A stretch of DNA of 64,000 nt. Source: Roseobacter cerasinus. Lineage in GTDB: Bacteria > Pseudomonadota > Alphaproteobacteria > Rhodobacterales > Rhodobacteraceae. Positions 8,553 through 29,226 of the stretch are shown piece after piece; position 1 is the stretch's first letter; the number at the start of each line of letters is the position of its first letter. Below the pieces are notes generated by a model. The model ran no database searches, was not told where the DNA came from, and worked only from the letters and a program-made list of their open reading frames with translations. The position numbers and the translations under genes were made by a program. The stretch is taken from contig NZ_BLIV01000004.1 in the NCBI RefSeq assembly GCF_009811755.1, forward strand, positions 248,001 to 312,000, written 5' to 3'.

Positions 8553-8564
8553 CTGGCTGGGTCC

Positions 8565-9491: not shown

Positions 9492-9563
9492 CTCATGCCT
9501 CCGGGTGTCTTTTGGGAAAGTAGGGGCGGCCCGGGTCTGGCACCCCGGACCGCGAAACCGGCC

Positions 9564-11009: not shown

Positions 11010-14000
11010 ATGGCTGACGTGGGGCAGAGCATCTCCTTTCTGCATGGGAGCGGTATGGTCGCACGTCTCAAAGCCACGCGTGAAAAGCGCACCTACAATC
11101 GTTGGGTCGCCAACGAGACGATGGAGGATTTTGCGCTGCGCTATACTGCGCGGCGCGCGCGGCGTTGGAGCTATGGCCGGGTGGCAAACACCGCCATCGG
11201 GTCGATCTCCTTCCTCGCGCTGGAGGCCATTGGTGCCACCATCACGCTGACCTACGGGTTCGACACGGCGATCACTGCGATCATGCTCGTGGGTGCGATC
11301 CTGTTTCTGACCGGATTCCCGATTTCCTACTATGCTGCCAAATACGGGCTAGATATCGACCTGATGACGCGCGGGGCGGGCTTTGGCTATCTCGGCTCGA
11401 CGATCACCTCGCTGATCTACGCGTCTTTCACCTTCATCTTCTTTGCGCTGGAGGCCGCTATCCTGGCGCTTGCGCTGAAATTCACACTCGGAGTGCCTCT
11501 GTTCCTGGGCTATGTGGCCAGCTCACTGGTGGTCATCCCGTTGGTCGTGCATGGGTTTTCCAAGATCTCCACCTTTCAGGCCTGGACCCAGCCGCTTTGG
11601 GTGCTGCTACATGCGCTGCCCTTCGTGTTGCTGGCCTTTTCGGGATATGATCTGGAGATGTGGACGGGGTTTGAGGGTAACCCCGCCGTGCCCGACACCT
11701 CGCGTCTGCTGATGCTGGGTGCGGCCTCGGGGGTGGTGTTTTCGCTGGTGGCGCAGATCGGCGAGCAGGTGGATTTCCTGCGCTTTTTACCGGAACCGAA
11801 AACCCGAAGCGACAAGCGGAAATGGTGGCTGGCCCTCATCTGTGCCGGCCCCGGCTGGTCGGTGCTGGGGATGCTCAAGATGCTGGCCGGGTCCTATCTC
11901 GTCACCCTCGCCATCCGCGAAAGCGTGCCACCACAGGAGGCGACGGACCCCACGCGCATGTATCACACCGCCTTTGAACAGGTGTTGAGCTCACCCGCCC
12001 TGGTCTTAGGGTTGACGGCGATTTTTGTGATTTTGTCACAGCTGAAGATCAACGTCACCAACGCCTATGCGGGCTCCATTGCCTGGTCCAACTTCTTCTC
12101 TCGCCTGACCAAGAGCCACCCGGGCCGCGTGGTCTGGCTGGTCTTTAACGTGGCCATTGCGCTGATGCTGATGGAGCTTGGGGTCTTCACCGGGCTGGAA
12201 CACGTGCTCAGCCTCTATTCTCATGTGGCTGTGGCCTGGATCGGGGCACTGGTGGCGGATCTGGTGGTGAACAAGCCGCTGGGCCTCAGCCCCAAGGGCA
12301 TCGAATTCCGGCGCTCACATCTCTATGACGTGAACCCGGTGGGTATCGGCGCGATGGTCGTGTCCTGTGTGGTCTCGCTGCTGGCCTACGCCGGGCTGTT
12401 TGGCCCTCTGGCGCAGGCGTTCTCATCCTTCGTGGCGCTGCTGACGGCCTTCACGCTGGCGCCGATCCTCGCCTGGGCGACGGGTGGGCGCTACTATCTG
12501 GCGCGGGACGACACCGAGACGTCGGAAGAGCCTGGGCTGCAGACCTGCACGGTCTGCGAATACCGGTTCGATGCCGAGGATACGAGCCACTGCCCTTTCC
12601 ATTTCGGGCGCATATGCTCGCTGTGTTGCAGCCTCGATGCAGCATGCCAGGACCATTGCAAACCGCATGGGCGGCTAGACAAGACCGTCAGCGAAGCGCT
12701 GCACGCCGCCCTGCCGGAGCCCGTGGCCAAGGCGTTGCAGTCGCGGCTCTCGCGGTTTCTGGTCACGACCAGTGCCATTTCACTGAGTTTCGGCGTCTTG
12801 CTGCTCTTTATCCGGGGGTTTGCAGGGGCCGATACCCAAGATGCGGTCCTGACCATCATCTTCTGCATGATCCTGATTGTGATCGGCATTTCTGTCTGGA
12901 TGTTCATTCTGGTGGGCGAGAGCCGCCGCAACGCCATGGCGGAGGCGGAGCGGCAGACCGAACTGTTGCTCAAGGAAATTCGCGCCCATGACCGTACTGA
13001 ACAGGCGCTGCAACAGGCCAAGGAAAAAGCCGAGGCCGCCAATCTCGCCAAGACCCGCTATATGTCGGGCCTCAGCCATGAGCTACGCACGCCGCTGAAC
13101 GCGATCTACGGCTTTGCGCAGCTCCTTGAAAAGGACCCGGGCCTGACGGATTGGCGCGGGTCTATCACCAGCATCCGCCGGTCATCAGAACATCTCGCCG
13201 GGCTGATCGATGGCCTGCTGGACATCGCCCGGATCGAAGCGGGGCGGTTGGAGATCATGCGCGACCGCGTCAACCTGCGCGTTCTGCTACATCAGATTGC
13301 TGCGATTTTCGAAGCGGAGGCCGCCGCAAAGGGTATCGCCTTTGACTGGACGATCCGGGGACGGTTGCCGACGCTGGTGGGCACCGACGAAAAGCGTCTG
13401 CGCCAGATCATCATCAACCTGCTGTCCAACGCGATCCGCTACACCGATACCGGGCGTGTTGCGCTGGATTTGGCCTACCGCAACGAGGTTGCTCTGATCA
13501 CGGTCACCGACACCGGCATTGGCATTGAACCGCAGAACATCCCGCGCATCTGGCGGCCCTTTGAACGTGCAGGCCAGTCGGGGCAGCAAGGCTCAGGGCT
13601 CGGGCTGACGATCACCAAACTGCTGGTTGAAATCCTCGGCGGCGAGATCGATGTGGAAAGCAGCCCGGGGGAGGGCAGCATTTTTTCCGTCAAGCTCATG
13701 CTGCCATCGATCACGCCCGGTGTATTTGATCTGGAAGACCGGCGCGATGATGCCGCTTTGCCCGCATTTGTCGGCTACACCGGCCCGCGTCAGACAGTGC
13801 TGGTTGTGGATGACGACACCAACCATTTGTCTCTGGTCGAACAATTTCTCAGCCATCTCGGGTTTGTTGTGCTGATCGCCCCATCCACGGATATGGCGGA
13901 GCAGATGCTGAGCGAAGCGCGGCCTGATATCATGCTGCTGGACATCGATATGCCTGACCAGGACGGATGGTCCTTTGCGCAGGAACTGCGTTTTGGCGAC

Positions 14001-14399
14001 TGGCCGCATCTGCCGATTATTGTGATTTCAGGGCATGCGGATGAAGAGAGCGTCAGCCGACCGAAGATCGCGCTGCATGATGCGTTTATGGCGAAGCCGT
14101 TCAATCTTGACGAGCTCCTGATGCAGATCGCCGAGCTTTTGAAGCTCAAGCTGGTCCCGAAGGAGGATCAGGATACACGTGAGATCGACGCGGTCCGGCT
14201 GGGCGCCGAGGATCGGATGCGGCTGATCGAAAGTGCGTCTCTGGGCCACATCGCAGGGGTCCGCCAACAGCTGCACCGGCTGCGGGCTAAGGGGCTGTGT
14301 GATGCGGGCACGCTGCGCAAACTGGACAAGCATATGGAGCATTTCGACCTCGGAGGGATCGTGAACCTGCTGGAGGATGTCGAAGATGCGGCCCAGTGA
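11010..14399 (+). CDS. Hybrid sensor histidine kinase with NCS1 permease-type sensor domain
   Basis: 1129 residues. Residues 1-500 are a full NCS1 (nucleobase:cation symporter-1, purine/cytosine permease-like) membrane domain: 'NRWVANETMEDFALRYTARRAR', then about twelve helices. A Cys-rich stretch (about 511-553: CTVC, CP, CSLCC, CQDHC) and two more helices (about 592-635) follow. A coiled-coil leads into the HisKA domain (SHELRTPLNAI, His near residue 689), HATPase (N-box INLLSNAIRYTD; DTGIGIE; GSGLGLTI), and a receiver domain (VVDDD near 931; phospho-acceptor in LLDIDMP near 977), then a short helical tail. A permease fused to a kinase probably reads out ligand uptake or binding, as in CbrA-type sensors. 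Its divergent placement beside the amide transporter suggests an amide, urea or nucleobase-breakdown signal. An alternative start at 11055 has a GGGAG site; both are plausible. Confidence 0.9.
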   Translation: MADVGQSISFLHGSGMVARLKATREKRTYNRWVANETMEDFALRYTARRARRWSYGRVANTAIGSISFLALEAIGATITLTYGFDTAITAIMLVGAILFLTGFPISYYAAKYGLDIDLMTRGAGFGYLGSTITSLIYASFTFIFFALEAAILALALKFTLGVPLFLGYVASSLVVIPLVVHGFSKISTFQAWTQPLWVLLHALPFVLLAFSGYDLEMWTGFEGNPAVPDTSRLLMLGAASGVVFSLVAQIGEQVDFLRFLPEPKTRSDKRKWWLALICAGPGWSVLGMLKMLAGSYLVTLAIRESVPPQEATDPTRMYHTAFEQVLSSPALVLGLTAIFVILSQLKINVTNAYAGSIAWSNFFSRLTKSHPGRVVWLVFNVAIALMLMELGVFTGLEHVLSLYSHVAVAWIGALVADLVVNKPLGLSPKGIEFRRSHLYDVNPVGIGAMVVSCVVSLLAYAGLFGPLAQAFSSFVALLTAFTLAPILAWATGGRYYLARDDTETSEEPGLQTCTVCEYRFDAEDTSHCPFHFGRICSLCCSLDAACQDHCKPHGRLDKTVSEALHAALPEPVAKALQSRLSRFLVTTSAISLSFGVLLLFIRGFAGADTQDAVLTIIFCMILIVIGISVWMFILVGESRRNAMAEAERQTELLLKEIRAHDRTEQALQQAKEKAEAANLAKTRYMSGLSHELRTPLNAIYGFAQLLEKDPGLTDWRGSITSIRRSSEHLAGLIDGLLDIARIEAGRLEIMRDRVNLRVLLHQIAAIFEAEAAAKGIAFDWTIRGRLPTLVGTDEKRLRQIIINLLSNAIRYTDTGRVALDLAYRNEVALITVTDTGIGIEPQNIPRIWRPFERAGQSGQQGSGLGLTITKLLVEILGGEIDVESSPGEGSIFSVKLMLPSITPGVFDLEDRRDDAALPAFVGYTGPRQTVLVVDDDTNHLSLVEQFLSHLGFVVLIAPSTDMAEQMLSEARPDIMLLDIDMPDQDGWSFAQELRFGDWPHLPIIVISGHADEESVSRPKIALHDAFMAKPFNLDELLMQIAELLKLKLVPKEDQDTREIDAVRLGAEDRMRLIESASLGHIAGVRQQLHRLRAKGLCDAGTLRKLDKHMEHFDLGGIVNLLEDVEDAAQ

Positions 14400-14400
14400 C

Positions 14401-15282
14401 ATGAGCCAAAACTGCATCGCGCTGGTGGTGGACGACAATCCGGAGGCCTTGGGCATGGTCTCAACGGCCTTGGAGCGGAATGGCATTACCGTTCTTGTGG
14501 CCACGGACGGGCAATCCGCGATAGACCTGACGCATCGCGTGCGGCCGGATGTCATTCTGATGGATGCGGTCATGCCCGGGCTCAGCGGGTTCGAGACTTG
14601 CCGCACCCTCAAATCGGGGCCTGATGCGGTGATGGCGCCGATCATTTTCATGACCGGGTTGTCCGATCAGGAGCACATCCTCGAAGGGTTGAGTTCCGGT
14701 GGGGTCGACTACATCACCAAACCGGTGATCGTTGAGGAGCTGATCGCCCGTCTCAGCACTCACATCGCAAATTCGCGCCTGTTGCAGAGCGCGCGTGCGG
14801 CACTGGACAGCTCTGGCCGTTCGGTGCTGGCCTTTGATCTGGACGGCACGCTGCTCTGGGGGTCATCGCAGGCGAAGGAGACGTTTCGCAGCTTTGACCT
14901 CTCCCACCACGCCCCGGCCTGGAGGGCCTGGATTGCCTCTTGTGGGCGTCAGCCGGTGTCAGCCGTGCTGCCCTATGAGGTCGGGCCGCTGACATTTCAG
15001 TTCATGGGTGTGACGCCTGTGCCGGAGGTTCTGGTCAAACTCATCCTGCGATCGTCGGATCGCAAGGAGGACGTGCTGGCGCGGCAGTTTGATCTGACAC
15101 CGCGCGAGGCCGAGGTTCTGTTCTGGCTGACGCTTGGGAAGACCAACCGCGACATCAGTTCGATTCTCGGCTTGAGCGCGCGGACGGTGAACAAGCATCT
15201 GGAGCAGGTCTTTCAAAAGATGGGGATCGACAATCGCACCTCGGCTGCGGTGATGGCGGATCGGGTGCTGAACGCGCAGTAG
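14401..15282 (+). CDS. LuxR-type response regulator paired with the NCS1-kinase
   Basis: 293 residues. N-terminal receiver domain (about 5-120; acidic pair VVDDN, phospho-Asp in ILMDAVMPG, Lys in ITKPV), a middle segment of about 100 residues unlike common response regulators, containing 'LAFDLDGTLLWGSSQA', and a C-terminal LuxR HTH (about 230-290: LTPREAEVLFWLTLGKTNRDIS...RTVNKHLEQVF). It starts one base after the kinase stop, so both are co-expressed. The likely target is the inverted repeat at 10920. An in-frame ATG at 14377 would overlap the kinase gene and is less likely. Confidence 0.9.
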   Translation: MSQNCIALVVDDNPEALGMVSTALERNGITVLVATDGQSAIDLTHRVRPDVILMDAVMPGLSGFETCRTLKSGPDAVMAPIIFMTGLSDQEHILEGLSSGGVDYITKPVIVEELIARLSTHIANSRLLQSARAALDSSGRSVLAFDLDGTLLWGSSQAKETFRSFDLSHHAPAWRAWIASCGRQPVSAVLPYEVGPLTFQFMGVTPVPEVLVKLILRSSDRKEDVLARQFDLTPREAEVLFWLTLGKTNRDISSILGLSARTVNKHLEQVFQKMGIDNRTSAAVMADRVLNAQ

Positions 15283-15420
15283 GCGGCATCATGAGAGGCT
15301 CCATCAAACGGTGCTGTGACCGTTGCGCCGCAGGGCGCCGGTGATGCAGCCGCGTTAACCAAAGATCAAATGACGGCGCGGGACTCTGGTGCTAGGCTTG
15401 CCACCATAAGGAGAATCCCC

Positions 15421-15975
15421 TTGAGCCATATTTTTTCTGCCAGATCAGATGGCCCGCATTTTTCCCGCAAGCGGCAGAGCAGCGCCCCCTCCGCCACCGT
15501 GGCCTCCATTGCCTCGAAAAGCCATGCGTTGCAGGCCCGCGCGGATCAGAGTGCCGCAGTACGGCAGTTGGCGCGCTGGACGGGAAAACCGGTGCTGCAG
15601 CGTGAGGGGATGCCAGAGGAGCAAGCCTCGGGCGGTCTGCCCGCAGATCTGCGCAGCGGGGTGGAATCTCTATCCGGTATGGATATGAGCGACGTGCGGG
15701 TGCACTACAACTCAAGCGCGCCGGCACAGTTTCAGGCGCATGCCTACGCGCAGGGCAGTGATATTCATCTTGCTCCGGGGCAGGAGAAACATCTGCCGCA
15801 TGAGGCCTGGCATACCGTGCAGCAGAAACAGGGCCGCGTGCAGCCGACCCGCCAGTTGGCCGGTAGCGGTGCTGCGATCAATGACAATGTGGCGCTGGAA
15901 CGGGAAGCCGATGTGATGGGCGCGCGCGCGGCCTCCGCCCCGGCGCAAAGGGTTGCCGAGCAACGGGACGACTGA
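15421..15975 (+). CDS. DUF4157 (eCIS core domain) protein, TTG start
   Basis: 184 residues if started at the TTG at 15421, which has an AAGGAG site 7 bases upstream; longer in-frame options (GTG 15316, ATG 15370) lack one. The domain shows the DUF4157 hallmarks: 'LPADLRSGVESLSGMDMSDVRVHYNS', 'AYAQGSDIHLAPGQE', 'LPHEAWHTVQQKQGRV' with an HEXXH (HEAWH) zincin motif, and a terminal acidic 'NDNVALEREADVMG'. DUF4157 is the most frequent eCIS-associated domain and is found on or beside injected cargo. There is no additional toxin domain, so it may act as a loader, adaptor or maturation protease. Its stop overlaps the start of the channel-like gene by 1 base (TGATG). Confidence 0.85.
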   Translation: MSHIFSARSDGPHFSRKRQSSAPSATVASIASKSHALQARADQSAAVRQLARWTGKPVLQREGMPEEQASGGLPADLRSGVESLSGMDMSDVRVHYNSSAPAQFQAHAYAQGSDIHLAPGQEKHLPHEAWHTVQQKQGRVQPTRQLAGSGAAINDNVALEREADVMGARAASAPAQRVAEQRDD

Positions 15976-17258
15976 TGCGCCGATCTCAATGCCACGTCCT
16001 CCTTTGGGGTCTCTGCCTTCTTAGCTTGTTCGCGGTCTCTGCCGTGCAGGCCTGTGACGCGCCCGAGGGCCAGCACGATCTGGTGGTGGCGATCCGGTCT
16101 GCGGAACCCTTTACGTTCACCGGGCCGGACGGGTTGCCGCGGGGTTTTGCGGTGGATCTGTGGCACTCCATCTCGACGGATATCGACAAGACGACGGCTT
16201 TTGTGAATTGCGACAGCATTGACGCGCAGGAGGCCGCTCTGCGGCGCGGCAGCGTCGATGTGGTCATCTCGCCGCTGACAATCACGGCCGAACGGATGCT
16301 GACCTATGACTTCAGCCAGCAGTATCTGTCGTCGGGGCTGACGCTAGCCGTGGCGCAATCGGGGGCCATCGATTTTGAGGTGGCCATCAACACCATAAGC
16401 GAAACCGTGTTTCAGCCGACGGTGGCGCGGGCGATCATTCTCTTCCTGCTGCTTAATCTGGTCACGGCGTTTCTGCTGCGGGCGCTGATGCGCAGCCTAC
16501 CGGATGGGTTGGACGACCATGGCGAGGTTGGCCGGTTTCGCGCCTCGACGGCCTATATGCTGGAAGCTGTCGCGCGCACCTCTGGTCTCAAAGGGGTTGG
16601 CGATGGGTTCCGCACATTGCTGGGCAAGGTGTTCGAGATGGTGATGGCCGTGGTCGGCACCGCGCTGTCGGCGATGATACTGGGCGTGATCACATCGGCC
16701 TTTGTCGGCGCGATTGGAGAGAACCCGCCCGTCTCCGCGCAGGCGCTGCCGGGGATGAGCATCGCCGTTTTGCGCTGCTCTACTGCGCAGGAGTTTCTGC
16801 GGCAGGAGGTGACCGAAGCGGCCTTTCGCGCCGATGAGGACAGCGCGGAGCAGGAGGGGTTGATGGCGCGGGCGGCCTGGCTTGACTGTGCGGCGCATCA
16901 GGCGGACAACATGCGCAAGGTAGATGCAATGCCACAGGATGGGCTGCCGGGTGGCTTCATACTGACACCGACGTGGAAAGAGGCGGTGGAGCAGCTCTAT
17001 CAGGGTAAGGTGGAGGCGGTGCTGGGGGATTGGGTCGCGTTGTCTTACCTGTCGCGCCGTGCGCCTTACGACGGGCAGGTCAGTGTACAGAACAGCGTCT
17101 ACCGCAACGAGCCCTATGGCTGGGCGATCACGCGGGCGGGTGGCAATGAGGAGCTGCGCCGCGCCATTGACAGCGCGCTGATTGTGCGGATGCGCGACAC
17201 CGATTGGCGCAAGCGCATCGAAAACACCTTGGGCTCGGGGGCGATTGCGCCGAACTGA
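15975..17258 (+). CDS. Ionotropic glutamate receptor-like ligand-gated channel candidate
   Basis: 427 residues. Order of parts: signal peptide (1-27), first lobe of a bacterial SBP_bac_3 binding domain (about 33-135, 'LVVAIRSAEPFTFTGPDGLPRGFAVDLW', 'GSVDVVISPLTITAERMLTYDFS'), a membrane helix (about 146-168), a 50-residue re-entrant-like segment, a second long helix (about 218-247), then the second binding lobe (about 255-420). This S1-M1-P-M2-S2 order is that of prokaryotic iGluR channels (GluR0 type). The classical TVGYGD filter is missing; 'SGLKGVGDGF' occupies the region. Two Cys pairs are possible in the lobes. It is translationally coupled on both sides. Alternative: a binding protein with a membrane insertion that only senses. 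Confidence 0.7.
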   Translation: MRRSQCHVLLWGLCLLSLFAVSAVQACDAPEGQHDLVVAIRSAEPFTFTGPDGLPRGFAVDLWHSISTDIDKTTAFVNCDSIDAQEAALRRGSVDVVISPLTITAERMLTYDFSQQYLSSGLTLAVAQSGAIDFEVAINTISETVFQPTVARAIILFLLLNLVTAFLLRALMRSLPDGLDDHGEVGRFRASTAYMLEAVARTSGLKGVGDGFRTLLGKVFEMVMAVVGTALSAMILGVITSAFVGAIGENPPVSAQALPGMSIAVLRCSTAQEFLRQEVTEAAFRADEDSAEQEGLMARAAWLDCAAHQADNMRKVDAMPQDGLPGGFILTPTWKEAVEQLYQGKVEAVLGDWVALSYLSRRAPYDGQVSVQNSVYRNEPYGWAITRAGGNEELRRAIDSALIVRMRDTDWRKRIENTLGSGAIAPN

Positions 17259-18046
17259 TGGGACATCACCAGGATATCCGCCCGGTTCAACGGGACAACC
17301 CGACCGAAGGGTCCTACAGGCTCTACTTCCGGTCGGGCCATTACGACAAACGCTATCCGGGGCCGAATGTGACGACGTGGGATAAGGTACTCGATCTGCT
17401 GCCGCAGGGCGGGCATGTGATCGACTATGGCTGTGGCAACGGGCGGTATCTGTTGCGACTGCAGGAACGCGCCGGTCGGGCTGCGGGCTATGACATCAAC
17501 CCGGCAGCGCTGGAAATTCTGGCGCAGCGCGCGGTCGAGATGGGCTGGAAAGATCTCAAGGTACTCGGGCCGAACCCGGAGGCGTTGACCGCGCATGTGC
17601 GTGCGTGCGGACAGGCTGATTTGATCCTCTGTCTTTTTGGCGTGCTGGCTCACATCGAAGCGCGCGAAGAGCGTCTGACTGTGCTGCGCCAAATGCGCCG
17701 CATGCTCCGCCGGGGCACCGGGCATCTGCTGATCTCGGTGCCAAACCGGCGGCGGCGGTTCTGGCACGAACAGCGAAAGGCCGGCCCAAAGGCCAAAGGG
17801 CTGATCCGCTATACCCGCGTCATTGATGGCACCGAGGTGGGCCTGCCTTACCAGCTTTATGACCCTGCCACCTTGCAGGCCGAGCTGGCAGAGGCGGGCT
17901 TCTGGATCAAGAGCATCGAGGCCGAGAGCGTGCTGCCAGAGAGCTGGCTGACCAGCCATAACGCGCTGCGCCGGATTGACACGGTTCTGACCCGCATCTG
18001 CCCGGCGGCCCTGGGTTATGGGCTGATCGCTGTCGCCACCCCATGA
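17258..18046 (+). CDS. Class I SAM-dependent methyltransferase
   Basis: 262 residues. Motif I is VIDYGCGNGRYL (about residues 47-58), followed by an acidic motif II (GYDINPAALEI) and a 'LILCLFGVLAHIEAREER' segment typical of Methyltransf_11/25-type enzymes. The substrate is unknown; 'YRLYFRSGHYDKRYPGP' near the N-terminus and 'LPYQLYDPATLQAELAEAGF' near the C-terminus recall small-molecule or wobble-base methyltransferases. The start at 17258 overlaps the preceding stop (TGATG); an upstream in-frame ATG at 17204 is less likely. It is embedded between two binding-protein-type membrane genes, so a role in modifying a ligand or the sensor is possible but unproven. Confidence 0.82.
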   Translation: MGHHQDIRPVQRDNPTEGSYRLYFRSGHYDKRYPGPNVTTWDKVLDLLPQGGHVIDYGCGNGRYLLRLQERAGRAAGYDINPAALEILAQRAVEMGWKDLKVLGPNPEALTAHVRACGQADLILCLFGVLAHIEAREERLTVLRQMRRMLRRGTGHLLISVPNRRRRFWHEQRKAGPKAKGLIRYTRVIDGTEVGLPYQLYDPATLQAELAEAGFWIKSIEAESVLPESWLTSHNALRRIDTVLTRICPAALGYGLIAVATP

Positions 18047-19647
18047 TCCGCGTGCTGGCGCTTGTGTTGGGCCTGCTGGGGCAGGGTGCCTTGGCGGATG
18101 CGCAGGTGCCCGCAGCAGCTGATGGGCGGCTTGCGCATATCCTGCAGCGCGGTAGCCTGATTGTCGGGGTCAAGACGGACTATCCGCCCTGGGGCATGCT
18201 AGATGCCGAGGGGACGATCATCGGGCTGGAGCCGGACCTCGCCCAGCTGCTGGCGGAGCGTCTGGGCGTGGGGTTGGAGTTGGTGCCCGTGACCGCCTCC
18301 AACCGGCTGGCCCGACTTGAGCAAGGGGTGGTGGATGTGGTGATCGCCACCATGGGCGACACCGCAACACGGCGCGCGCAATCGGGTCTGCTGCAGCCGA
18401 GCTACTATTCCAGCGGCGTGGTGGCCTATGTCCCTGCTGACAGCCCTTACCAGTCCTGGGCGGATCTGCGTGGCCAACCGGTCTGCATGACGCAAGGCGC
18501 CTACTACAATCGGACGCTGGAAGAGACCTATGGTGTCGCAGGGCAATATTTTCCGGCCAATCGCGAAGCCAAGATGGCGCTGTCGTTCGGGCGCTGCGTG
18601 GCCTGGGCCTTTGACGACACCGCCCTTGTGCAGCGGGTGCTGGCGAATCCGGAGGACGGCTACACAGTTATGCAGGATCGTATCCTGGTGACCCCCTGGG
18701 CCGTGGCTGTGGCCCGCAGTGATCGCGAGGCCAGCCTTGGTCGGTTCGTTTCTGCCATGATTGGGGAGTGGCACAGCGCCGGCACGCTTCTGGCGCTGGA
18801 GCGCAAATGGCAAATCGGAGAAAGTGCCTATCTGCAGGGGTTGAACAAGGTCTGGTCAACTCCGGGCGCCTGTTTGCGGGGTGCGGATGGCTTGCCGCCC
18901 GCCTGCCAGGGGGCACCGCCCTTTGCGGCGCATGAGGATCCCAGGGCGCCGCCCGACTGGATGACCCGCCTGCGTGATCACACCGGCATCGATGTTCTCG
19001 TGCTGCATGAGGCTTACACGAGAGGGAGGCTGGCGCAGGGGTTGGGGATGACGCTTGCGCTGTCGGCGACGGCGATCCTGGGTGCGCTGACGGTTGGATT
19101 GTTGCTGGGGATGATGGATGCTGCGCTGCAAAGACGCGGCGTCTGGGGGCAGGTGCTGCTCTTGCCGCAAAAACTGCTTGTGACCTTGGCGCGGATGACG
19201 CCACCGATCCTGCAGATGTATATTGTCTTCTTCGGCCTGGGCGGGGTGCTTGCGCAATCCGCGATCATCACGCCCGGGGCCTTTGCCACAGCGGCGCTGA
19301 TCCTGTCGCTTTATGCAGGATCGACCAACGCCGTGCTGATCTCGCATGCGCTTGCGCAGGAGCGTGCTGTGTATCCCGACGCCGGGGTTTGGTCGCTGCT
19401 GCCGCACGCGTTCCAGCGGGCCTATGACGGGCTGGTTGCCACCTGCGTGAACATCGTCAAGGCCGCCGGGATGGCGAGCGCCATCGCTCTGGCCGAACTG
19501 GTCTCGACCGTGAACCTGATTGTCTCCGAAGGCGGTGATGTGGCCACCTTCATGAACGGGTTGCTGGTGTTTTATTTCCTGCTGATGCTGGGCGTGCTGT
19601 GGCTCTTCCGGCTTTTGCGGCGCTGGATCGTCGGGTCCGAAGCATGA
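18043..19647 (+). CDS. Substrate-binding protein/ABC permease fusion
   Basis: 534 residues. Signal peptide (1-20), SBP_bac_3 binding domain (about 30-262: 'GSLIVGVKTDYPPWGMLDAEGTIIGLEPDLAQLLAERLG', 'GVVDVVIATMGDTATRRAQ'), a linker with two Cys (about 275-290), then an amino-acid-type permease domain (about 325-530) with five to six helices. Such fusions import polar amino acids when joined by an ATPase, but no ATPase gene lies nearby. It overlaps its neighbours by 4 bases on each side (ATGA), so it is co-translated with the methyltransferase and the second permease. Either it recruits a distant ATPase or it is a sensor. Confidence 0.85.
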   Translation: MIRVLALVLGLLGQGALADAQVPAAADGRLAHILQRGSLIVGVKTDYPPWGMLDAEGTIIGLEPDLAQLLAERLGVGLELVPVTASNRLARLEQGVVDVVIATMGDTATRRAQSGLLQPSYYSSGVVAYVPADSPYQSWADLRGQPVCMTQGAYYNRTLEETYGVAGQYFPANREAKMALSFGRCVAWAFDDTALVQRVLANPEDGYTVMQDRILVTPWAVAVARSDREASLGRFVSAMIGEWHSAGTLLALERKWQIGESAYLQGLNKVWSTPGACLRGADGLPPACQGAPPFAAHEDPRAPPDWMTRLRDHTGIDVLVLHEAYTRGRLAQGLGMTLALSATAILGALTVGLLLGMMDAALQRRGVWGQVLLLPQKLLVTLARMTPPILQMYIVFFGLGGVLAQSAIITPGAFATAALILSLYAGSTNAVLISHALAQERAVYPDAGVWSLLPHAFQRAYDGLVATCVNIVKAAGMASAIALAELVSTVNLIVSEGGDVATFMNGLLVFYFLLMLGVLWLFRLLRRWIVGSEA

Positions 19648-20255
19648 TCGAACTTTTGCTGAGCCATACGGACTACCTGATACGCGGGTTCGCCATCAAC
19701 CTGTTGATCTCGGTGTTGTCCATGGGGCTCGGCACCGTGCTTGGGGGCGCGCTGGGGTGGTTGCGCGCGCAGCGCGTCACTGCCCTCGGGTCCGTGGCGC
19801 ATATGGGCACCAACGTCTGCCGCAACGTGCCCAGCTTTGTGTTGCTCTTCTACATGGCCTCGATGATCCCCAGCGAGGTCACGATCAGCGGCACCATCAT
19901 GGCCGTTCCGCTCTGGATCAAGGCGACGCTGGCGCTGACCTTTCCTGTTGTCGGCTTCACCTCCGATCAGTCGCGCGGCTATTTTGCGCAGCGCATGGCC
20001 GGGCTGACCGGCGCGAGGGAGACCTTTGTGGTCGCCTGGGTGCAATACTTCCTGATTATCCTCATGGCCTCGGCCACCGCCTCTGTCATCGGCGCGGATG
20101 AGATCGTGGGTCGGGCCAATATTGTCATTTCGCAGAATGAAAGCCCGCAGTTCCTGCTGCTCACCTATCTCTACGTCTCGTTCTGGTTTCTCGCGGCGGG
20201 GCTGGCGCTGACCAGCGCAGCGCGGCTCCTCACCGGGCGGCGTGGGGTGACCTAG
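19644..20255 (+). CDS. Amino-acid-type ABC transporter permease (short)
   Basis: 203 residues with about five hydrophobic segments and the HisM/GlnP-like layout ('INLLISVLSMGLGTVLGGALGWLR', 'RNVPSFVLLFYMAS'). The EAA-like loop reads 'GYFAQRMAGLTGARETFVVAWVQ', only partly conserved. It starts inside the preceding stop (ATGA) and would form a heterodimer with the fused permease at 18043. No ATPase is encoded in the operon. Confidence 0.8.
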   Translation: MIELLLSHTDYLIRGFAINLLISVLSMGLGTVLGGALGWLRAQRVTALGSVAHMGTNVCRNVPSFVLLFYMASMIPSEVTISGTIMAVPLWIKATLALTFPVVGFTSDQSRGYFAQRMAGLTGARETFVVAWVQYFLIILMASATASVIGADEIVGRANIVISQNESPQFLLLTYLYVSFWFLAAGLALTSAARLLTGRRGVT

Positions 20256-20368: not shown

Positions 20369-20941
20369 ATGATCGACCAGGCATTACAACTCGTCCGTGA
20401 TCGGCTGAACGATCACCTGCGCATACGCTTTGCCGTGTCCGAAGACCTTGTCAGCCTGTCACCCCTGACCGATGTGGAAGGCAAACCCGCAAAGGAAGCG
20501 CGCAATCGGCTGGTGCTCTTCATGGTCAACATCGCGCGCGACACAGTGCCGCGCCAGCGCACCGCGCGGGGTGCCGCGCCCACGCTGCAGGCGCAGCCTT
20601 TGCACATGGATGTCTATTTCATGGTCGCTTCGGGCCATGACGTCGATCTCTACCCCGAAGGGCTGAAGCTGGTGTCTGCGGCGCTGATGTTCTTTCAGTC
20701 CCAGCCTGTCTTCACCCCGCAAAGCACGCCGGACATGCCACAGGGGCTGTCGCAGCTGACGGTGGAGGTCAGCAACATGGGGCTGGAGGAGGTTGGCCAG
20801 ATCTGGTCGAACCTCGGCAGCCGTTACGTGCCCTCGGTGATGTTCAAGATGCGCTCGGTCATGATCGACGCGAGCATGACGACGGGCATTGCACCGACCA
20901 TCACAGCGCCCTCGCAGCGGGCCGAGGCGGAAACCGTCTGA
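20369..20941 (+). CDS. DUF4255 protein, eCIS tube terminator/cap (Afp16/Pvc16-like)
   Basis: 190 residues. The N-terminus 'MIDQALQLVRDRLNDHLR', the central 'NRLVLFMVNIARDT' and 'LHMDVYFMVASGHDVDLYPEGLKLVSAALMFFQSQPVFT' are the conserved parts of DUF4255. In Afp and PVC particles this protein (Afp16) caps the distal end of the tube and sheath and sets particle termination. It is the first structural gene, as is common in non-Photorhabdus eCIS loci. The stop overlaps the next start (TGATG). Confidence 0.9.
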   Translation: MIDQALQLVRDRLNDHLRIRFAVSEDLVSLSPLTDVEGKPAKEARNRLVLFMVNIARDTVPRQRTARGAAPTLQAQPLHMDVYFMVASGHDVDLYPEGLKLVSAALMFFQSQPVFTPQSTPDMPQGLSQLTVEVSNMGLEEVGQIWSNLGSRYVPSVMFKMRSVMIDASMTTGIAPTITAPSQRAEAETV

Positions 20942-21681
20942 TGGGGTATTCGGAACGCCTGCGTCTGGAGGTGCAGCACGCCTTCTTTGACGAGGCGGTG
21001 CCGCCATTGGAGATGCGCCCGAGCGATCCGCGTGGCTTTGACGCGGCGCGGCTGCTGCTGCGCCAACGGGGTCGGTTTGTGCATGTGCTGCAGGACGATG
21101 CGGTCGAGGATCAGCCCTCGGAGATCGCGCTGACACTGCTGGCCACCGCGCATGATCTCTTTGCTGTGACCAAGGGCGCCGTCTGGGGCGCTGTGGTGCA
21201 TCTGACCGCCGGGCTGGACCAAGAGGCGCTGGCCTTTGATGAGGCTGGCCCTGCGCAGCCCACGGATACGGCGGGCCGGTTCCTGCCCGTTCTGGCGACC
21301 CTCGACATAGCACTTCCGTCCGAGGGCCGGCGCGATCTGCTGCTGCGCTGCGACGCCGTGGCCGCGCATTGGGCCTATCATCTGATTGGTGCGGGGCAAA
21401 TCGACGCCTTGGAGGTGGTTGACAGCGCAGGCGCTGTCGCCTTCGAAGATCTGGGCGAGCAGGACCTGCCCAACGGCCAGGCCGCGCGGGTGATCCGCTC
21501 TATCCAGGCGTTGGCCGCCCGGGCCCGCCCGCCGGAGCGGTTTGCGCTGCAAAAGGCCGGACCATTCGGCCCGGAAACGCTTGTGCCTGTGCTGCCCGCT
21601 GCCGCCATCGATTTCAAACCCATCCCCGACACGGGCGCCCCGCCGCGTCTGCAATCCGACATCTTCGTCACGCTTTGGTAA
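20941..21681 (+). CDS. Uncharacterised eCIS-associated protein
   Basis: 246 residues, soluble, no signal peptide and no motif I recognise. The first half contains 'RGFDAARLLLRQRGRFVHVLQDD' and 'EIALTLLATAHDLFAVTK'; the end is 'DIFVTLW'. It is translationally coupled to the cap gene and lies 13 bases before the sheath gene, so it is probably a structural or assembly component (for example a cap adaptor at the same end of the particle). Confidence 0.75.
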   Translation: MGYSERLRLEVQHAFFDEAVPPLEMRPSDPRGFDAARLLLRQRGRFVHVLQDDAVEDQPSEIALTLLATAHDLFAVTKGAVWGAVVHLTAGLDQEALAFDEAGPAQPTDTAGRFLPVLATLDIALPSEGRRDLLLRCDAVAAHWAYHLIGAGQIDALEVVDSAGAVAFEDLGEQDLPNGQAARVIRSIQALAARARPPERFALQKAGPFGPETLVPVLPAAAIDFKPIPDTGAPPRLQSDIFVTLW

Positions 21682-21694
21682 AGGAGAGCCCAGA

Positions 21695-23869
21695 ATGGCT
21701 ATGAAGACCCCCGGTGTTTACATCGTTGAGAAGAACGCGTTTCCCAACTCGGTGGTGCAGGTGGCCACGGCTGTCCCGGCCTTCATCGGGTACACCGAAA
21801 CGGCGATGAACGGGAATGTCTCGCTGGCGGGCACACCCTGGCGGATCACCTCGATGTCGGAGTTCCACAGCTACTTCGGCGGCGCGCCGGAGCCGATGTT
21901 CGAGGTCAAACCCTTTGAGGCGTTCACCGGGGTCTCGCCCCTGTCGGCCGATGGCGCGGACAAGAAGCCCACGATGCCGCGGGCGGTCTTCACCACACAA
22001 GGCCCGCGCGGGGCGGAAGAGTTCGAGCTGGTGCAGACCAACCCGGCCTATGCGCTTTACGGCGCGATGCGGCTCTTCTTCCAGAACGGCGGCGGCGCCT
22101 GTTATGTGACCTCGATCGGCTCTTACAGTGACGACATCGACGCGGATGCGATGATGGCAGCAATCGACCGGCTGAAGAAGGAGCCGGAGCCGACGATGGT
22201 GGTGATCCCGGAAACCACGCGGCTGGTGCGGCAGAACGCGGTCAAGGTGCAGCAGGCGATGCTGAAGCACTGTGGCAACGACATGAAGAACCGCTTTGCG
22301 ATCCTCGACATCTCGGGCGGCTACCTGTCGCAGTCCGATCCTTTGGGCAACCCGGTGGCGACCTTCCGCAATGATGTTGGCACGAACAATCTGGACTTCG
22401 GCGCGGCCTATTACCCGTGGCTTGACAGCTCGATCTATCAGTCGCGTGATTTCACCTTCGAGAATATCGACCCCGGCAGCCGCAAGACGCTGATTGGCCT
22501 CATGCGCCGCTCGGTCGGCAAATCGGACGAGCTGCGGCAGGAGATCGAGCGGATCTCGGCGCCCTCGATCATGGGGGATTTCACCCTGTCCGTGCCGAAG
22601 GGCGGTACCATTGCAGTGACGACCACAGACATCACGGCGACCGATGATGAGAGTAGCGCTGAGGGCCTGACCTACACCGTCGAGGGCAGTGAGGACGCGA
22701 TGGCGGGCAAGCTGGTCAAGACCGGCTCGACCGATGCGATCACCAGCTTCACCCAAGCACAGTTGGAAGCCGGTGAGGTCAGCTTTATCCACGACCCGGA
22801 GAAAGGCAGCACGGGTCAGTTCGACCTGGTGGTGAGTGACGAGAACGACATCGCCACCGATGCCCGCACCATCGCGGTGGATGTGGTCGGCGGTTTGCTT
22901 GATGCGCCTTCGGTGGCGGCGGGCAAATCGGTTGTGGTAGACGTGCCCGCCGATCACCCCGACGGCGACAAGGCCAGCGTGAAGCTGATCGACGCGGACA
23001 CCGACGCAGGCAAGGCCAAGACCGAAGAAGGCGTGGGCACATGGAAAGTGGGCAGCGGCGGCAAGGTCACCTTTGCACCCGACCCCGCGTTCATCGGGCC
23101 TGAAGCCTCGGTCAGCTACACCATCGAAGTAAATGGCGCAGTGCAAGGCCCACAGCAGATCCGCATTCTGATGAATGACAGCGACGCGGGCGTGGAAGAG
23201 GGCAGCCCCTCAGCCGCGACCATCGACAAGACGCTGCGCGCTGTTGTGCCGCTCTACACGGAAGTGATGAACGAGATCACTGGCTATATGAACTCCATGC
23301 CGCCGTCCTCGGCGATGGCCGGGCTTTACACCATGGTCGACAGCAGCCGGGGCGTCTGGAAGGCGCCCGCGAATGTTTCGGTCAACTCGGTCGTGGCGCC
23401 GATGGTCAACATCAGCCACGAGGAGCAGGAAAACCTCAACGTCTCGACCACCGGTAAATCGATCAACGCGATCCGGCCCTTTGTGGGCGAGGGCACGCTC
23501 GTCTGGGGCGCGCGCACGCTGGACGGCAACTCGCTTGACTGGCGCTACATCAACGTGCGCCGGACTATGATCATGATTGAGGAGTCGATCCGGCTCGCCT
23601 CGAAGGCCTATGTGTTCGAGCCGAACACGGCGCAGACCTGGGTCACCATGCGCTCGATGATCGAGAACTTCCTGACCTCGATCTGGAAGCAGGGGGGCCT
23701 TGCGGGCGCGGTGCCGACGGATGCGTTCAGCGTTCATGTGGGCCTCGGCGAGACCATGACGCCGGTGGATATTCTGGAAGGTATCTTGCGCATCACCGTT
23801 CTGGTGGCGGTCACGCGGCCTGCGGAATTCATCGAGATCACCTTCCAGCAGCAAATGCAGAAATCGTAA
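21695..23869 (+). CDS. Contractile sheath protein with adhesin-like insertion
   Basis: 724 residues; sheath subunits of eCIS are commonly about 350-500. The start 'MAMKTPGVYIVEKNAFPNSVV' and the C-terminal third ('AGLYTMVDSSRGVWKAPANVSV', 'GEGTLVWGARTL', 'YINVRRTMIMIEESI', 'IRITVLVAVTRPAEFIEI'-type end) are typical T4-like sheath. Between about residues 297 and 495 is an insertion with two beta-rich modules: a CSPG/cadherin-3-like repeat ('EGLTYTVEG', 'SFTQAQLEAGEVSFIHDPE', 'FDLVVSDEND') and an Ig-like module ('GTWKVGSGGKVTFAPDPAFIGPEASVSYTI'). These would decorate the particle surface. Start chosen at 21695 with AAGGAG 8 bases upstream. It is the only sheath gene here, against three in Afp. 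Confidence 0.95.
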   Translation: MAMKTPGVYIVEKNAFPNSVVQVATAVPAFIGYTETAMNGNVSLAGTPWRITSMSEFHSYFGGAPEPMFEVKPFEAFTGVSPLSADGADKKPTMPRAVFTTQGPRGAEEFELVQTNPAYALYGAMRLFFQNGGGACYVTSIGSYSDDIDADAMMAAIDRLKKEPEPTMVVIPETTRLVRQNAVKVQQAMLKHCGNDMKNRFAILDISGGYLSQSDPLGNPVATFRNDVGTNNLDFGAAYYPWLDSSIYQSRDFTFENIDPGSRKTLIGLMRRSVGKSDELRQEIERISAPSIMGDFTLSVPKGGTIAVTTTDITATDDESSAEGLTYTVEGSEDAMAGKLVKTGSTDAITSFTQAQLEAGEVSFIHDPEKGSTGQFDLVVSDENDIATDARTIAVDVVGGLLDAPSVAAGKSVVVDVPADHPDGDKASVKLIDADTDAGKAKTEEGVGTWKVGSGGKVTFAPDPAFIGPEASVSYTIEVNGAVQGPQQIRILMNDSDAGVEEGSPSAATIDKTLRAVVPLYTEVMNEITGYMNSMPPSSAMAGLYTMVDSSRGVWKAPANVSVNSVVAPMVNISHEEQENLNVSTTGKSINAIRPFVGEGTLVWGARTLDGNSLDWRYINVRRTMIMIEESIRLASKAYVFEPNTAQTWVTMRSMIENFLTSIWKQGGLAGAVPTDAFSVHVGLGETMTPVDILEGILRITVLVAVTRPAEFIEITFQQQMQKS

Positions 23870-23890
23870 GTTTAGAGAGGATATTCAGAT

Positions 23891-24349
23891 ATGGCAGACG
23901 ACGGTTCCGCCCAAACGCAGGCCATCTGGCCGCTTCCCAAGTTCCACTTCCAGGTCAAGTGGGATGACACGGAACTCGCGTTCCAGGAGGTCTCGGGCCT
24001 CGACATTGAAAGCGAGCCGATCGAGTACCGCGCGGGCAACAACCCGGTGTTCTCGACGATCAAAATGCCGGGGATGATCAAGACCTCGAACATCACCATG
24101 AAGAAAGGTGTGTTCGTGAAGGACAACGCCATCTGGGATTGGTTCTCCGAGATCAAGATGAACACGATCACGCGCAAGGCGCTGACGATTTCGCTGCTCG
24201 ATGAGGCCCAGAACCCGACCATGGTCTGGAAGGTGCAGAACGCGTTTCCGATCAAGGTGACAGGCACGGATCTCAAGGCCGATGGCAATGAGGTGGCGGT
24301 GGAGAGCATCGAGATCGCACACGAAGGCTTTGTAATCGAGAACGCCTAA
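23891..24349 (+). CDS. eCIS inner tube protein (gp19-like, Afp1-like)
   Basis: 152 residues. 'FHFQVKWDDTELAFQEVSGLDIESEPIEYRAGN', 'MKKGVFVKDNAIWDWF' and 'WKVQNAFPIKVTGTDLKADGNEVAVESIEIAHEG' are the standard elements of the T4 gp19/Hcp-related tube family. It polymerises in hexameric rings inside the sheath. Placed 21 bases after the sheath gene, with an AGAGG ribosome site upstream. Confidence 0.95.
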   Translation: MADDGSAQTQAIWPLPKFHFQVKWDDTELAFQEVSGLDIESEPIEYRAGNNPVFSTIKMPGMIKTSNITMKKGVFVKDNAIWDWFSEIKMNTITRKALTISLLDEAQNPTMVWKVQNAFPIKVTGTDLKADGNEVAVESIEIAHEGFVIENA

Positions 24350-24353
24350 GCGC

Positions 24354-24809
24354 ATGGCCCTGTTTGACCCTCCTGTCGCGTTTCATTTTTCGGTGATGTT
24401 CATGGGGCTCTTTCCGCCCGTGCCGGACATGGCGTTTCAGGAGGTCTCGGGACTGGAAAGCAGTATCGAGCTGGAGCCGTTGGTGGAAGGGGGCGAGAAC
24501 CGCTTTGTCCACCAACTGCCGAAACCGGCAAAGCGGCCCAACCTGCAGCTCAAACGCGGCATGACCACGGCGGCCAGCGGGTTGGTGCAATGGTGCAAGA
24601 GCACGCTGGAGGGTGATTTCGCCAAGGCGATCACGCCCAAGGACATCAACGTCTCGCTGCTCAACGCCAGCCGCATGCCGGTGGCCTCCTGGTCCATCGG
24701 CAATGCCTTTCCGGTGAAATGGTCGGTGGGCAATTTCGACGCGATGAAAAACGAGTTGGCCATCGAGACTATCGAGCTGGCCTATACGACGCTGAAAAGG
24801 AATATGTGA
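24354..24809 (+). CDS. eCIS second tube-type protein (Afp5-like, tube initiator)
   Basis: 151 residues of the same gp19 family as the preceding gene ('DMAFQEVSGLESSIELEPLVEGG', 'WSIGNAFPVKWSVGNFDAMKNELAIETIELAYTTL'), but diverged. In Afp the corresponding Afp5 makes the first tube ring on the baseplate hub. It begins 4 bases after the tube gene and its stop overlaps the next start. Confidence 0.92.
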   Translation: MALFDPPVAFHFSVMFMGLFPPVPDMAFQEVSGLESSIELEPLVEGGENRFVHQLPKPAKRPNLQLKRGMTTAASGLVQWCKSTLEGDFAKAITPKDINVSLLNASRMPVASWSIGNAFPVKWSVGNFDAMKNELAIETIELAYTTLKRNM

Positions 24810-24982
24810 TGGCGATTGAGATCGGATCGCTGGTGGTCAAGGGCCGCTTTGGCCCGCCGGGGCGCAGCGAGCGCGAAACGCAGCGCGAGCTGGCGCAGCA
24901 GATGGCCGAGATGCGGCGCGATCTGCTTGATGAGATGCGCGAGATCATGGCGGAGGCGGCCCAGCGGCCGGTCGACCGCTAA
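24809..24982 (+). CDS. DUF5908 family small eCIS protein (Afp6-like)
   Basis: 57 residues, start overlapping the preceding stop (TGATG). 'MAIEIGSLVVKGRFG' followed by a charged amphipathic helix ('ETQRELAQQMAEMRRDLLDEM') is the usual form of DUF5908 proteins, which occupy this position in eCIS operons. The exact role is not known; a small baseplate or assembly factor is likely. Confidence 0.85.
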   Translation: MAIEIGSLVVKGRFGPPGRSERETQRELAQQMAEMRRDLLDEMREIMAEAAQRPVDR

Positions 24983-24985
24983 GCC

Positions 24986-25678
24986 ATGGCCAAACTGAAG
25001 ATCATCCGCTGCAAGATCCAAAACGGGCAGATCAAAGAGCAGAAGGGCACGGCCAACACCTTCGAGGCGACCATCAACCCTCAGGACTACTCGCATACCT
25101 TCGGGCTGAAGTACTCCGGCACCGGCGAGGGCAGCAGCACGGCGGGCGCCTTGGGGAAATCGGCCCCGGTGGCGAAATTTGCCAGCTCTGAGGCGGAGAA
25201 GCTGAACTTCAGCATTGTGCTTGATGGCACCGGCGTAGTGCCCGACGCCGCAGGCGTGACCGTGGCCGAGCAGGTCGATAAGCTGCGCAGCATCGCCTAT
25301 GACTACGATGGAGATGAGCATGAGCCCACCCCGGTCAAGGTGGTCTGGGGCAAGGGACTCAAGGCGTTTTTCGGACGACTGACGTCACTCAGCGTGGACT
25401 ACAACCTCTTTCACCCCGATGGCTCAGCGTTGCGGGCCAAGCTCAAGCTGGATTTTGTCGAGGCCAAGACCGACGCCGAAGAGGCGCGCGAGGCCAAGCG
25501 CAAATCCCCCGATATGACCCATATGATCCGTGTGCAGGAGGGGGACACGCTGCCGCTGCTGTGCCAGCGCGTCTACAAGGACGTGACCAAATATCTTGAG
25601 ATCGCGCGGATCAACGAGCTGGACACATTTCGCGACCTGGAGCCCAACACGCTGTTGCGCTTCCCGCCGATGCGATGA
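24986..25678 (+). CDS. LysM-domain baseplate hub protein (Afp7-like, gp53-like)
   Basis: 230 residues. The N-terminal part carries 'FEATINPQDYSHTFGLKYS', 'KLNFSIVLDGTG' and 'FFGRLTSLSVDYNLFHPDGSALRAKLKLDFVE', the conserved core of CIS hub proteins. The C-terminal part (about 178-230) is a LysM-like module ('MIRVQEGDTLPLLCQRVYKD...YLEIARINELDTFRDLEPNTLL'). It connects the first tube ring to the VgrG spike. Confidence 0.92.
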   Translation: MAKLKIIRCKIQNGQIKEQKGTANTFEATINPQDYSHTFGLKYSGTGEGSSTAGALGKSAPVAKFASSEAEKLNFSIVLDGTGVVPDAAGVTVAEQVDKLRSIAYDYDGDEHEPTPVKVVWGKGLKAFFGRLTSLSVDYNLFHPDGSALRAKLKLDFVEAKTDAEEAREAKRKSPDMTHMIRVQEGDTLPLLCQRVYKDVTKYLEIARINELDTFRDLEPNTLLRFPPMR

Positions 25679-25687
25679 GGGTTGGTG

Positions 25688-27451: not shown

Positions 27452-27461
27452 GGAGCAAGAC

Positions 27462-27752
27462 ATGCCACCAGCCGCCAGAGTGACAGACATGCAGACCTGC
27501 CCGATGGTGACGGGGATCGTGCCGCATGTGGGCGGGCCCATCATCGGACCCGGCATTGCGACGGTGCTGATCACCAGCATGCCCGCCGCCGTGCTGGGGG
27601 ACAATTGCACCTGCGTCGGCCCGCCCGCCACCATCATCAAAGGGTCGGCCACGGTGATGATCGGCGGCAAACCGGCGGCGCGCATGGGCGACAGCACCTC
27701 GCATGGGGGCAGCATCGTTTTGGGCGCGCCCACAGTGATGATCGGAGGATAG
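27462..27752 (+). CDS. PAAR-domain spike tip protein (Afp10-like)
   Basis: 96 residues, one PAAR domain and nothing else. 'MPPAARVTDMQTCPMVTG', 'HVGGPIIGPG', 'NCTCVGPPATIIKGSATVMIGGKPAARMGDSTSHGG' and the terminal 'GAPTVMIGG' are diagnostic; the Cys and His residues bind the zinc that sharpens the spike. There is no C-terminal effector extension. Confidence 0.95.
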   Translation: MPPAARVTDMQTCPMVTGIVPHVGGPIIGPGIATVLITSMPAAVLGDNCTCVGPPATIIKGSATVMIGGKPAARMGDSTSHGGSIVLGAPTVMIGG

Positions 27753-27753
27753 A

Positions 27754-29093: not shown

Positions 29094-29226
29094 GGGTGTG
29101 ATGGCCAGTTTTCCTTGCGTCCGCAAGGGCTGGGCATAGAGTTGTGACAGGTGGGGTTTTCGCAACTGTTTATGATTGTTCAGGTTTTGGCGACCCGGCC
29201 GGGTTGCTGAGAGCGCATTTATAGAG
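29094..29226. other. Non-coding gap between lipoprotein and baseplate genes
   Basis: 133 bases. It contains a small hairpin CCTTGC (29113-29118) / GCAAGG (29123-29128) with no T-tract and an AT-richer tail. It could hold a secondary promoter for the large baseplate genes. I see no gene in it. Confidence 0.35.

Follow-up and report, generated by a model that had tools for sequence, protein, structure and literature searches.

The 64-kb window analyzed here (the whole stretch examined, positions 248,001 to 312,000 of contig NZ_BLIV01000004.1) comes from the 4.47-Mb genome of Roseobacter cerasinus and contains a unit of five genes directly upstream of an operon for a contractile injection system (CIS) (Table 1). 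The unit encodes a DUF4157 protein, a protein resembling ionotropic glutamate receptors (iGluRs), an S-adenosylmethionine (SAM) methyltransferase, a fusion of a substrate-binding protein (SBP) with a permease, and a second permease, hereafter perm2. An earlier note, made from the letters of the DNA, had described these five genes as joined by 1- and 4-base overlaps. We found them at the same place, its start of the first gene (15421) lying in the same frame as ours (15316), and the junction gaps from DUF4157 through iGluR, methyltransferase, and SBP-permease to perm2 were -1, -1, -4, and -4 bases. The CIS operon (20369-44058) starts 113 bases downstream of the end of the unit, and no terminator-like site was found within these 113 bases. 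As the note had stated, the five-gene unit contains no ATP-binding cassette (ABC) ATPase, judging from the open reading frames of the window and Pfam; the nearest ABC-type ATPase frames in the window belong to an operon on the opposite strand (4343-10835), which by eye reads as a urea transporter.

Table 1. Features of the window discussed in the text
Feature	Coordinates	Strand	Size and basis
DUF4157/eCIS_core protein	15316..15975	+	219 aa; PF13699, E 2.7e-12; HEAWH metallopeptidase-like motif
iGluR-like receptor	15975..17258	+	427 aa; SBP_bac_3 split over residues 37-413
Class I SAM methyltransferase	17258..18046	+	262 aa; PF13489, E 2.2e-12; also Methyltransf_23/25
SBP-permease fusion (amino-acid-type SBP and ABC-importer permease domain without EAA loop)	18043..19647	+	SBP_bac_3 at 39-256
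Second permease (perm2), EAA loop (20 residues) gone	19644..20255	+	203 aa
Hybrid histidine kinase with multi-helix N-terminus (11010-14399) and LuxR-type response regulator	11010..15282	+	Pfam; upstream of DUF4157
CIS structural genes: Pvc16-like, unknown 20941, sheath with Ig/cadherin-like insert, two T4 gp19-type tubes, CIS_tube protein, spike, PAAR, gp25	20369..28191	+	Pfam
Predicted lipoprotein, lipobox LSGC	28188..29093	+	Lipobox by pattern in 13/15 homologues
Further CIS genes: 29176, 33144, 33968 (no Pfam family), tape measure 36148, AAA+ ATPase 39404	29176..40765	+	PF19268, PF00004
Inner-membrane protein	40762..44058	+	1098 aa; hydropathy: signal-peptide-like helix, ~980 residues presumably periplasmic, three C-terminal hydrophobic helices

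The SBP_bac_3 match of the iGluR-like protein is interrupted, and its spread over residues 37-413 indicates that a membrane insert divides the binding domain. Indeed, an alignment of 19 module members (the module being the four genes from iGluR to perm2) and 2 other proteins gave the order signal-peptide-like helix, S1, M1, pore helix and loop, M2, and S2, that is, a binding domain divided into S1 and S2 around M1-pore-M2. This order is shared with the prokaryotic iGluRs (GluR0; groups 1 and 2) in the accessible part of Ger et al. 2010 (PMC2950845), as are the arginine in S1 and the aspartate in S2 that hold the amino acid in iGluRs. The corresponding residues, R107 and D352, were invariant in 9/9 sequences and align with the Arg and Asp of 2pyy. 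The module protein differs in its pore, where RTx[G/A]L stands in place of the K+ selectivity filter of the GluR0 type (group 1): RT was present in all 19 module members and was followed by xGL in 18 and by xAL in 1 (L062 and L073, neither a module member, are left out of the count). An ordinary potassium-type filter was found in the same alignment in L062, the protein of genome G021. Thus, the protein has the plan of an iGluR but is no GluR0-type potassium channel. An AlphaFold model built from 9 sequences reached a pLDDT of 63.5, and all 50 Foldseek matches listed for this low-confidence model were iGluRs (probability 1.00, 412-438 columns), with TM-scores to the query of 0.32-0.38. The L062 protein (6616-7713), which comes from the same bacterial family, is a conventional GluR0-like protein, and sheath and tube queries found no CIS gene in its genome. 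The part of Ger et al. that we could consult names no injection system.

The SBP domain of the fusion is of the amino-acid type by Pfam and fold search, and together the fusion and perm2 provide a type 3 SBP and two homologous permease units, the permease assignment being by sequence only and below curated cut-offs. A perm2 profile retrieved a single relative from the PDB at E 0.1, the Art(QN)2 permease 4yms_D (E 2.5e-6); perm2 also matched TIGR01726 below the cut-off, and the perm2 of the window had no Pfam match at E 0.01. In permeases of ABC importers, the EAA loop is the docking site of the ATPase. This loop was absent from 21/21 perm2 rows of the module (20 residues) and from 20/20 SBP-permease rows (10-15 residues; L023 and the truncated L070 dropped), whereas it was present in the 4 ABC controls for the former and the 3 for the latter (control L034, whose permease was read as a 132-aa fragment, dropped). 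PF00528 recognized all 5 controls but none of the 12 fusions tried, and among 14 second permeases it matched 2 (best E 0.004). The closest true importers that we found (L032, L033, L034, and L036) comprise an SBP, two permeases, and an adjoining ABC ATPase, confirmed by Pfam in L032. When the related loci were queried with an ABC ATPase, matches appeared only in L026 and L060, 3-5 kb off and on the other strand. The module shares an SBP-permease fusion and two permease units with GlnPQ and Art(QN)2 (4yms) but has neither an ATPase in the unit nor the EAA docking loops.

The ratio of nonsynonymous to synonymous substitutions (dN/dS), computed for the four module genes in 5 pairs of relatives, was 0.04-0.19 in all 17 computable values (one saturated methyltransferase value left out, and the permease genes missing in one pair). 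For the three receptor genes (iGluR, SBP-permease, and perm2), it was 0.04-0.13 in the computable pairs and therefore not that of decaying genes, which ruled out a decayed transporter; the loops were lost under purifying selection. Since the EAA loops are gone without decay, the permease pair is unlikely to be an ATP-driven importer, and because the permeases have lost their ATPase-docking loops, sensors are a better reading than transporters. Our data therefore favor the idea, already put forward in the note, that the transporter-like parts act as sensors. In the methyltransferase, D56, G58, G60, G62, and D79 were invariant in 11 sequences. No soluble output domain was recognized in the three membrane proteins. 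An anti-phage defence module was also considered and discarded: at E 0.01, PADLOC matched only the methyltransferase, to mads_2 (E 7.8e-14), and none of the other four genes.

The occurrence of the module follows that of one CIS subtype. A strong iGluR match (E <= 1e-60) was found in 15 of 59 genomes of the family. When the genomes are ranked by sheath match, precisely these 15 come first (E <= 3e-137; next 1.6e-82), and a strong iGluR match was absent from 40 other genomes searched alongside. Three family genomes with weaker sheath matches (G010, G031, and G053; best 1.6e-82) showed no iGluR match at 1e-10. Among 295 genomes across the family, the 4 with a strong iGluR were the 4 with the best sheath matches, and a strong iGluR was found in 0/263 genomes without a sheath match; G570 gave a weak iGluR match. 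The two proteins also diverged in parallel, the iGluR and sheath sequence distances being correlated over 17 genomes (r 0.82; 0/2000 permutations as high). Wherever one contig holds both, module and CIS are adjacent, as in Paracoccus marinaquae, where they lie side by side, with two provisos. The contigs of G015 and G017 break off within the methyltransferase gene, so that the remaining module and the CIS lie at the other contig end, and in G565 module and CIS occupy separate contigs, each of which ends in the SBP-permease gene. G575 has its CIS divided into two convergent arms; the module stands at the head of the arm that carries the lipoprotein gene, which it adjoins, and later CIS genes. 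The module therefore stays with the CIS through operon rearrangement. Co-occurrence, the rearranged locus, and the distance correlation together led us to reject chance neighborhood.

In several relatives, module and CIS are on contigs of 76-87 kb (85,347 bases for L023, 86,645 for L024, 85,355 for L025, and 76,046 for contig C11 of G017), and the locus of G015 and G017, which appears cut at both contig ends, would fit circular plasmids. A plasmid reservoir in PLSDB and a viral one were considered and rejected: a tblastn search of the iGluR against 72,556 plasmid records of PLSDB returned two partial matches at 33% identity, and no iGluR or perm2 relatives were seen among the pattern matches from viral contigs.

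The DUF4157 protein behaves differently from the four genes that follow it. Its HE[AT]WH motif was kept in 16/16 homologues read (that of G591 included, that of G017 not), and no second recognized domain was found in the 219 aa. Across 16 loci with both genes, a slightly different set, DUF4157 and iGluR overlap in 2, are 12-160 bases apart in 9, and lie on opposite strands in 5; the overlap was seen only in the window and one close relative, and at a 17th locus (G575), no DUF4157 gene stands beside the module. The proposal that DUF4157 and the receptors are partners in one translational unit was thus not supported, and DUF4157 is a CIS gene living nearby rather than a fixed translational partner of the iGluR. 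The DUF4157 proteins of L026 and L027 are longer (536 and 531 aa) than those of most relatives (~190-230 aa) by a C-terminal extension, and these extended proteins are possible cargo.

The operon downstream combines sheath, tube, spike/PAAR, gp25, Pvc16-like protein, tape measure, and AAA+ protein, by Pfam, which is the gene set of an extracellular CIS (eCIS). It also encodes a predicted lipoprotein (28188) and a large inner-membrane protein (40762), whose distribution is the same as that of the module: of 51 genomes, 19 had 40762 homologues (18 module genomes and G591) and 20 had 28188 homologues (the same 18, with weak matches in G577 and G591). The trans-envelope complex of the type VI secretion system (T6SS) similarly pairs a lipoprotein with a large inner-membrane protein encoded with the contractile machine, but 28188 and 40762 matched no Pfam or NCBIfam family at E 0.01 and hence give no sign of TssJ or TssM homology. 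By means of these two proteins, the CIS subtype may be tied to its producer's envelope, and an anchored, internal use of the particle may be left open by them. The cadherin/Ig-like insert of the sheath (21692-23869) covers residues ~298-479 (PF16184, PF19076, and PF17963), and sheath frames in module-bearing genomes are mostly 747-805 aa long (534 in G575). The 275-aa protein encoded at 33144-33971 has one stretch that by eye is like phage tail-fibre tips and may have a fibre role.

Relatives of the module also occur outside this CIS lineage. All four genes are present in a Halomonas metagenome-assembled genome (MAG; L028) and an Alcaligenaceae MAG (L030) without a CIS; neither a tube gene nor DUF4157 was found in these MAGs, of 2.9 and 2.6 Mb and with completeness not stated. 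Because it is found there without a CIS, the block is not an invention restricted to eCIS but a receptor module that is portable and was taken up by one CIS lineage. The earlier note had held that the link would be coincidental if its genes occurred together far from eCIS loci with no DUF4157; these two MAGs present that situation in part, with the four genes. What stands of the proposed link is that the four membrane and methyltransferase genes follow one CIS subtype, also in the rearranged G575. In Marinomonas MED121 (L035, 82-8579), RebB and two DUF2589 genes lie upstream of a set of methyltransferase, SBP-permease, and permease, with the DUF2589 genes adjoining and RebB ~9 kb from the methyltransferase, opposite-strand genes lying between; perm2 overlaps a Cache-domain gene by one base, and a sigma-54 regulator follows. 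The Marinomonas genome G733 has DUF4157 elsewhere but no tube. A Rhodobacteraceae MAG (L029, genome G570) carries the permease pair behind a cyclase gene (6312-9542), which lies on the same strand and 389 bases upstream of the EAA-less SBP-permease gene and encodes a class III adenylate/guanylate cyclase with a SAM domain and an AAA part; the distant iGluR-like protein of G570 (26% identity) is encoded away from the pair.

A 398-genome sample of the phylum yielded full-length perm2 relatives in the window's genome and two others, and five more partial matches. In a second family (f107), perm2 relatives were found in 8/195 genomes. Four of these, from one genus, combine a TAXI-type SBP, a methyltransferase, and the permease pair, with a DUF2589 gene nearby. 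In one of them (G264), a GH19 (lysozyme/chitinase-like) gene near the partial module was confirmed, in this genome only; the DUF2589 gene is kept in three relatives. Its position and reading frame suggest that a large DUF4157 protein of G264 ends ~5.6 kb upstream of the methyltransferase. In both G264 and G570, a tube gene is located elsewhere in the genome. The other four genomes have the permease pair only, in the stretch read; the T6SS genes for VipA and VipB are 5-7 kb away in 3, and the contig of the fourth begins before that point. The T6SS cluster near one of these pairs (L081, genome G790, 13518-17213) includes an SBP_bac_3 protein and two genes of the Sodium:dicarboxylate symporter family, by Pfam, and by eye a like set occurs in the T6SS cluster of L083 (G847, ~1023-4727). 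The module is thus portable and repeatedly, though not always, found near injection-type machines.

A general question about CIS particles is how the moment of docking and firing is set. In Streptomyces coelicolor, the membrane protein CisA is needed for firing and, according to the part of the source consulted (PMC12237407), has an SBP-like extracytoplasmic domain and was proposed to be a sensor and checkpoint. In the explanation that we prefer, and to which we give about an even chance, the genes at 15975-20255 code for a receptor module of the inner membrane that senses a ligand, serves one CIS subtype in Roseobacter, Paracoccus, and relatives, and licenses docking, firing, or release of the particle. 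It would consist of a receptor of the iGluR type whose pore is not a potassium pore, the SAM methyltransferase, and a receptor of two subunits that descends from an amino-acid ABC importer and has lost the docking loops. Architecture, loop loss, selection, and co-occurrence are results of the analysis; the ligand, coupling, and output that we infer are as follows. In the periplasm, the SBP and iGluR domains would recognize a ligand resembling an amino acid, perhaps one set free by damaged neighbors or hosts; the membrane proteins would then change, the former coupling face moving and ions perhaps flowing through the iGluR-type pore, and in this changed state they would license docking, firing, or release of the cytoplasmic CIS. 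As for the methyltransferase, it may adjust a receptor or produce the ligand. Such a module would work like CisA but from different parts. Like CisA, the iGluR-like and SBP-permease proteins are membrane proteins with an SBP-like extracytoplasmic domain encoded with a CIS. CisA, however, is bitopic, with a cytoplasmic N-terminus that may contact the baseplate protein Cis11 (PMC12237407, same part), whereas the module receptors cross the membrane with several helices, and the first element of each is a signal-peptide-like helix, which leaves no cytoplasmic N-terminus for such a contact.

Several observations weigh against this explanation. All four genes exist without a CIS in the two MAGs, and conversely G591, the fifth-ranked sheath match of the 295-genome sample, lacks iGluR and module although its CIS is a close one and the genome contains a homologue of 40762 and a weak match to 28188. 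The Fisher values for the co-occurrence (2.5e-14 for the 59 genomes and 1.2e-4 for the 295) overstate the case because the genomes are relatives and the sheath threshold was set after the results had been seen. Three of the 15 genomes (G011, G013, and G016) possess the iGluR and methyltransferase but no SBP-permease in the genome (E 1e-30) and no perm2 at the locus; the SBP-permease/perm2 half is therefore dispensable, and since these genomes keep only iGluR and methyltransferase, the latter two form the constant core in this CIS lineage. Ion conduction is uncertain because the pore varies outside RTx[G/A]L, and the model of the iGluR-like protein is of low confidence. Finally, both PDB fold searches with the SBP-permease model listed only SBP-type domains and thus reached the SBP half, so that the permease half rests on sequence.

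The same evidence can be read in other ways. The module could sense its ligand and alter expression or cell state via other signaling proteins, with no contact to the particle, and adjoin the CIS through a common life-style. Its presence without a CIS in other lineages would be explained in this way, as would the signaling genes that adjoin it elsewhere, namely, the class III cyclase in L029 and the Cache protein and sigma-54 regulator in Marinomonas (L035). A LuxR-type regulator and a kinase also precede the unit in the window, an arrangement shared with the eCIS loci with a GerE regulator and histidine kinase described in the consulted part of Geller et al. 2021 (PMC8213781), where GerE regulators are common near eCIS. 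We nevertheless find a regulatory role doubtful, given three membrane proteins without a recognized soluble output domain, an upstream kinase and regulator that lack conservation next to the CIS across the loci inspected, and a module that follows the CIS through rearrangement. Release or self-protection is distinctly unlikely in our view. Here, the iGluR-type pore and ATPase-less permeases would control membrane integrity, for example by ligand-gated depolarization or by lysis that frees the particles, or would protect the producer. In the part seen of Geller et al. 2021 (PMC8213781), lysis is the presumed exit route of eCIS, and the partial module of G264 lies near a DUF2589 gene and a GH19 gene, with DUF2589 kept in three relatives and RebB ~9 kb away in Marinomonas. 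Against this, the SBP domains with conserved amino-acid ligand residues favor ligand sensing, one lineage places the pair near a T6SS, which needs no lysis, and no holin family scored credibly for the module proteins, the best being a chance-level E of 0.19 for one perm2 member.

Ordinary amino-acid uptake, by an importer whose ATPase is encoded elsewhere and which stands beside the CIS by chance, would account for the homology of the parts to HisM/ArtM-type importers and for their closest true importers being sets of SBP, two permeases, and ATPase. The ABC-ATPase-like matches 3-5 kb from the module in L026 and L060 could be taken the same way, but they are on the other strand and absent from other loci. 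Since none of the 20 fusions and 21 second permeases aligned retains the EAA loop, and given the co-occurrence with one CIS subtype, we judge uptake very improbable. Hardly credible is the idea of a cargo role, in which the CIS would deliver the iGluR-like protein as an effector into the membranes of target cells. Toxins associated with eCIS are enriched among the neighbors of DUF4157 genes (PMC11297309, as far as that source was available), but the adjacency to DUF4157 is not conserved, the iGluR-like protein has a signal-peptide-like N-terminus, and the same gene exists without a CIS in L028 and L030.

A literature search, with most subscription papers outside its reach, found no published description of the association of module and CIS, the nearest being the CisA paper (PMC12237407). 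The main text of Geller et al. 2021 (PMC8213781), in the part available and apart from its supplements, contains no words beginning with transporter, permease, glutamate, or methyltransferase. A CIS with a membrane sensor is already known from CisA; the addition here is that the accessory module in the membrane is of a new type. If the receptor module licenses the CIS, it would be a second, independently built SBP-like CIS sensor, in Gram-negative marine bacteria rather than in Streptomyces, with a glutamate-receptor-type protein as one part, and the locus makes the question of docking and firing testable. The EAA-less ABC permease family, kept under selection, is a natural case of a transporter turned receptor. 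A broader and unlikely scenario is that an amino-acid ABC importer repeatedly became a motorless membrane receptor attached to injection machines (the CIS in Roseobacteraceae, T6SS in the second family, and perhaps R-body-type loci in a third) and in Roseobacter joined an iGluR-type receptor, which would make it the first known ligand-gated, channel-based CIS trigger, docked to the producer's envelope via 28188 and 40762.

The kinase and regulator upstream of DUF4157 were also considered as a conserved two-component partner of the CIS. This candidate was rejected, as no close homologue of either was found beside the CIS in L022-L027, L031, and L055-L061; a weak kinase-domain match (31%) in L026 and a receiver-domain match (32%) in L070 are each >5 kb upstream of DUF4157. 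The N-terminal half of the kinase (11010-14399) had no Pfam match at E 0.01 but looks like a multi-helix transporter, presumably of the NCS1-like kind. The kinase gene adjoins the operon that we read as a urea transporter.

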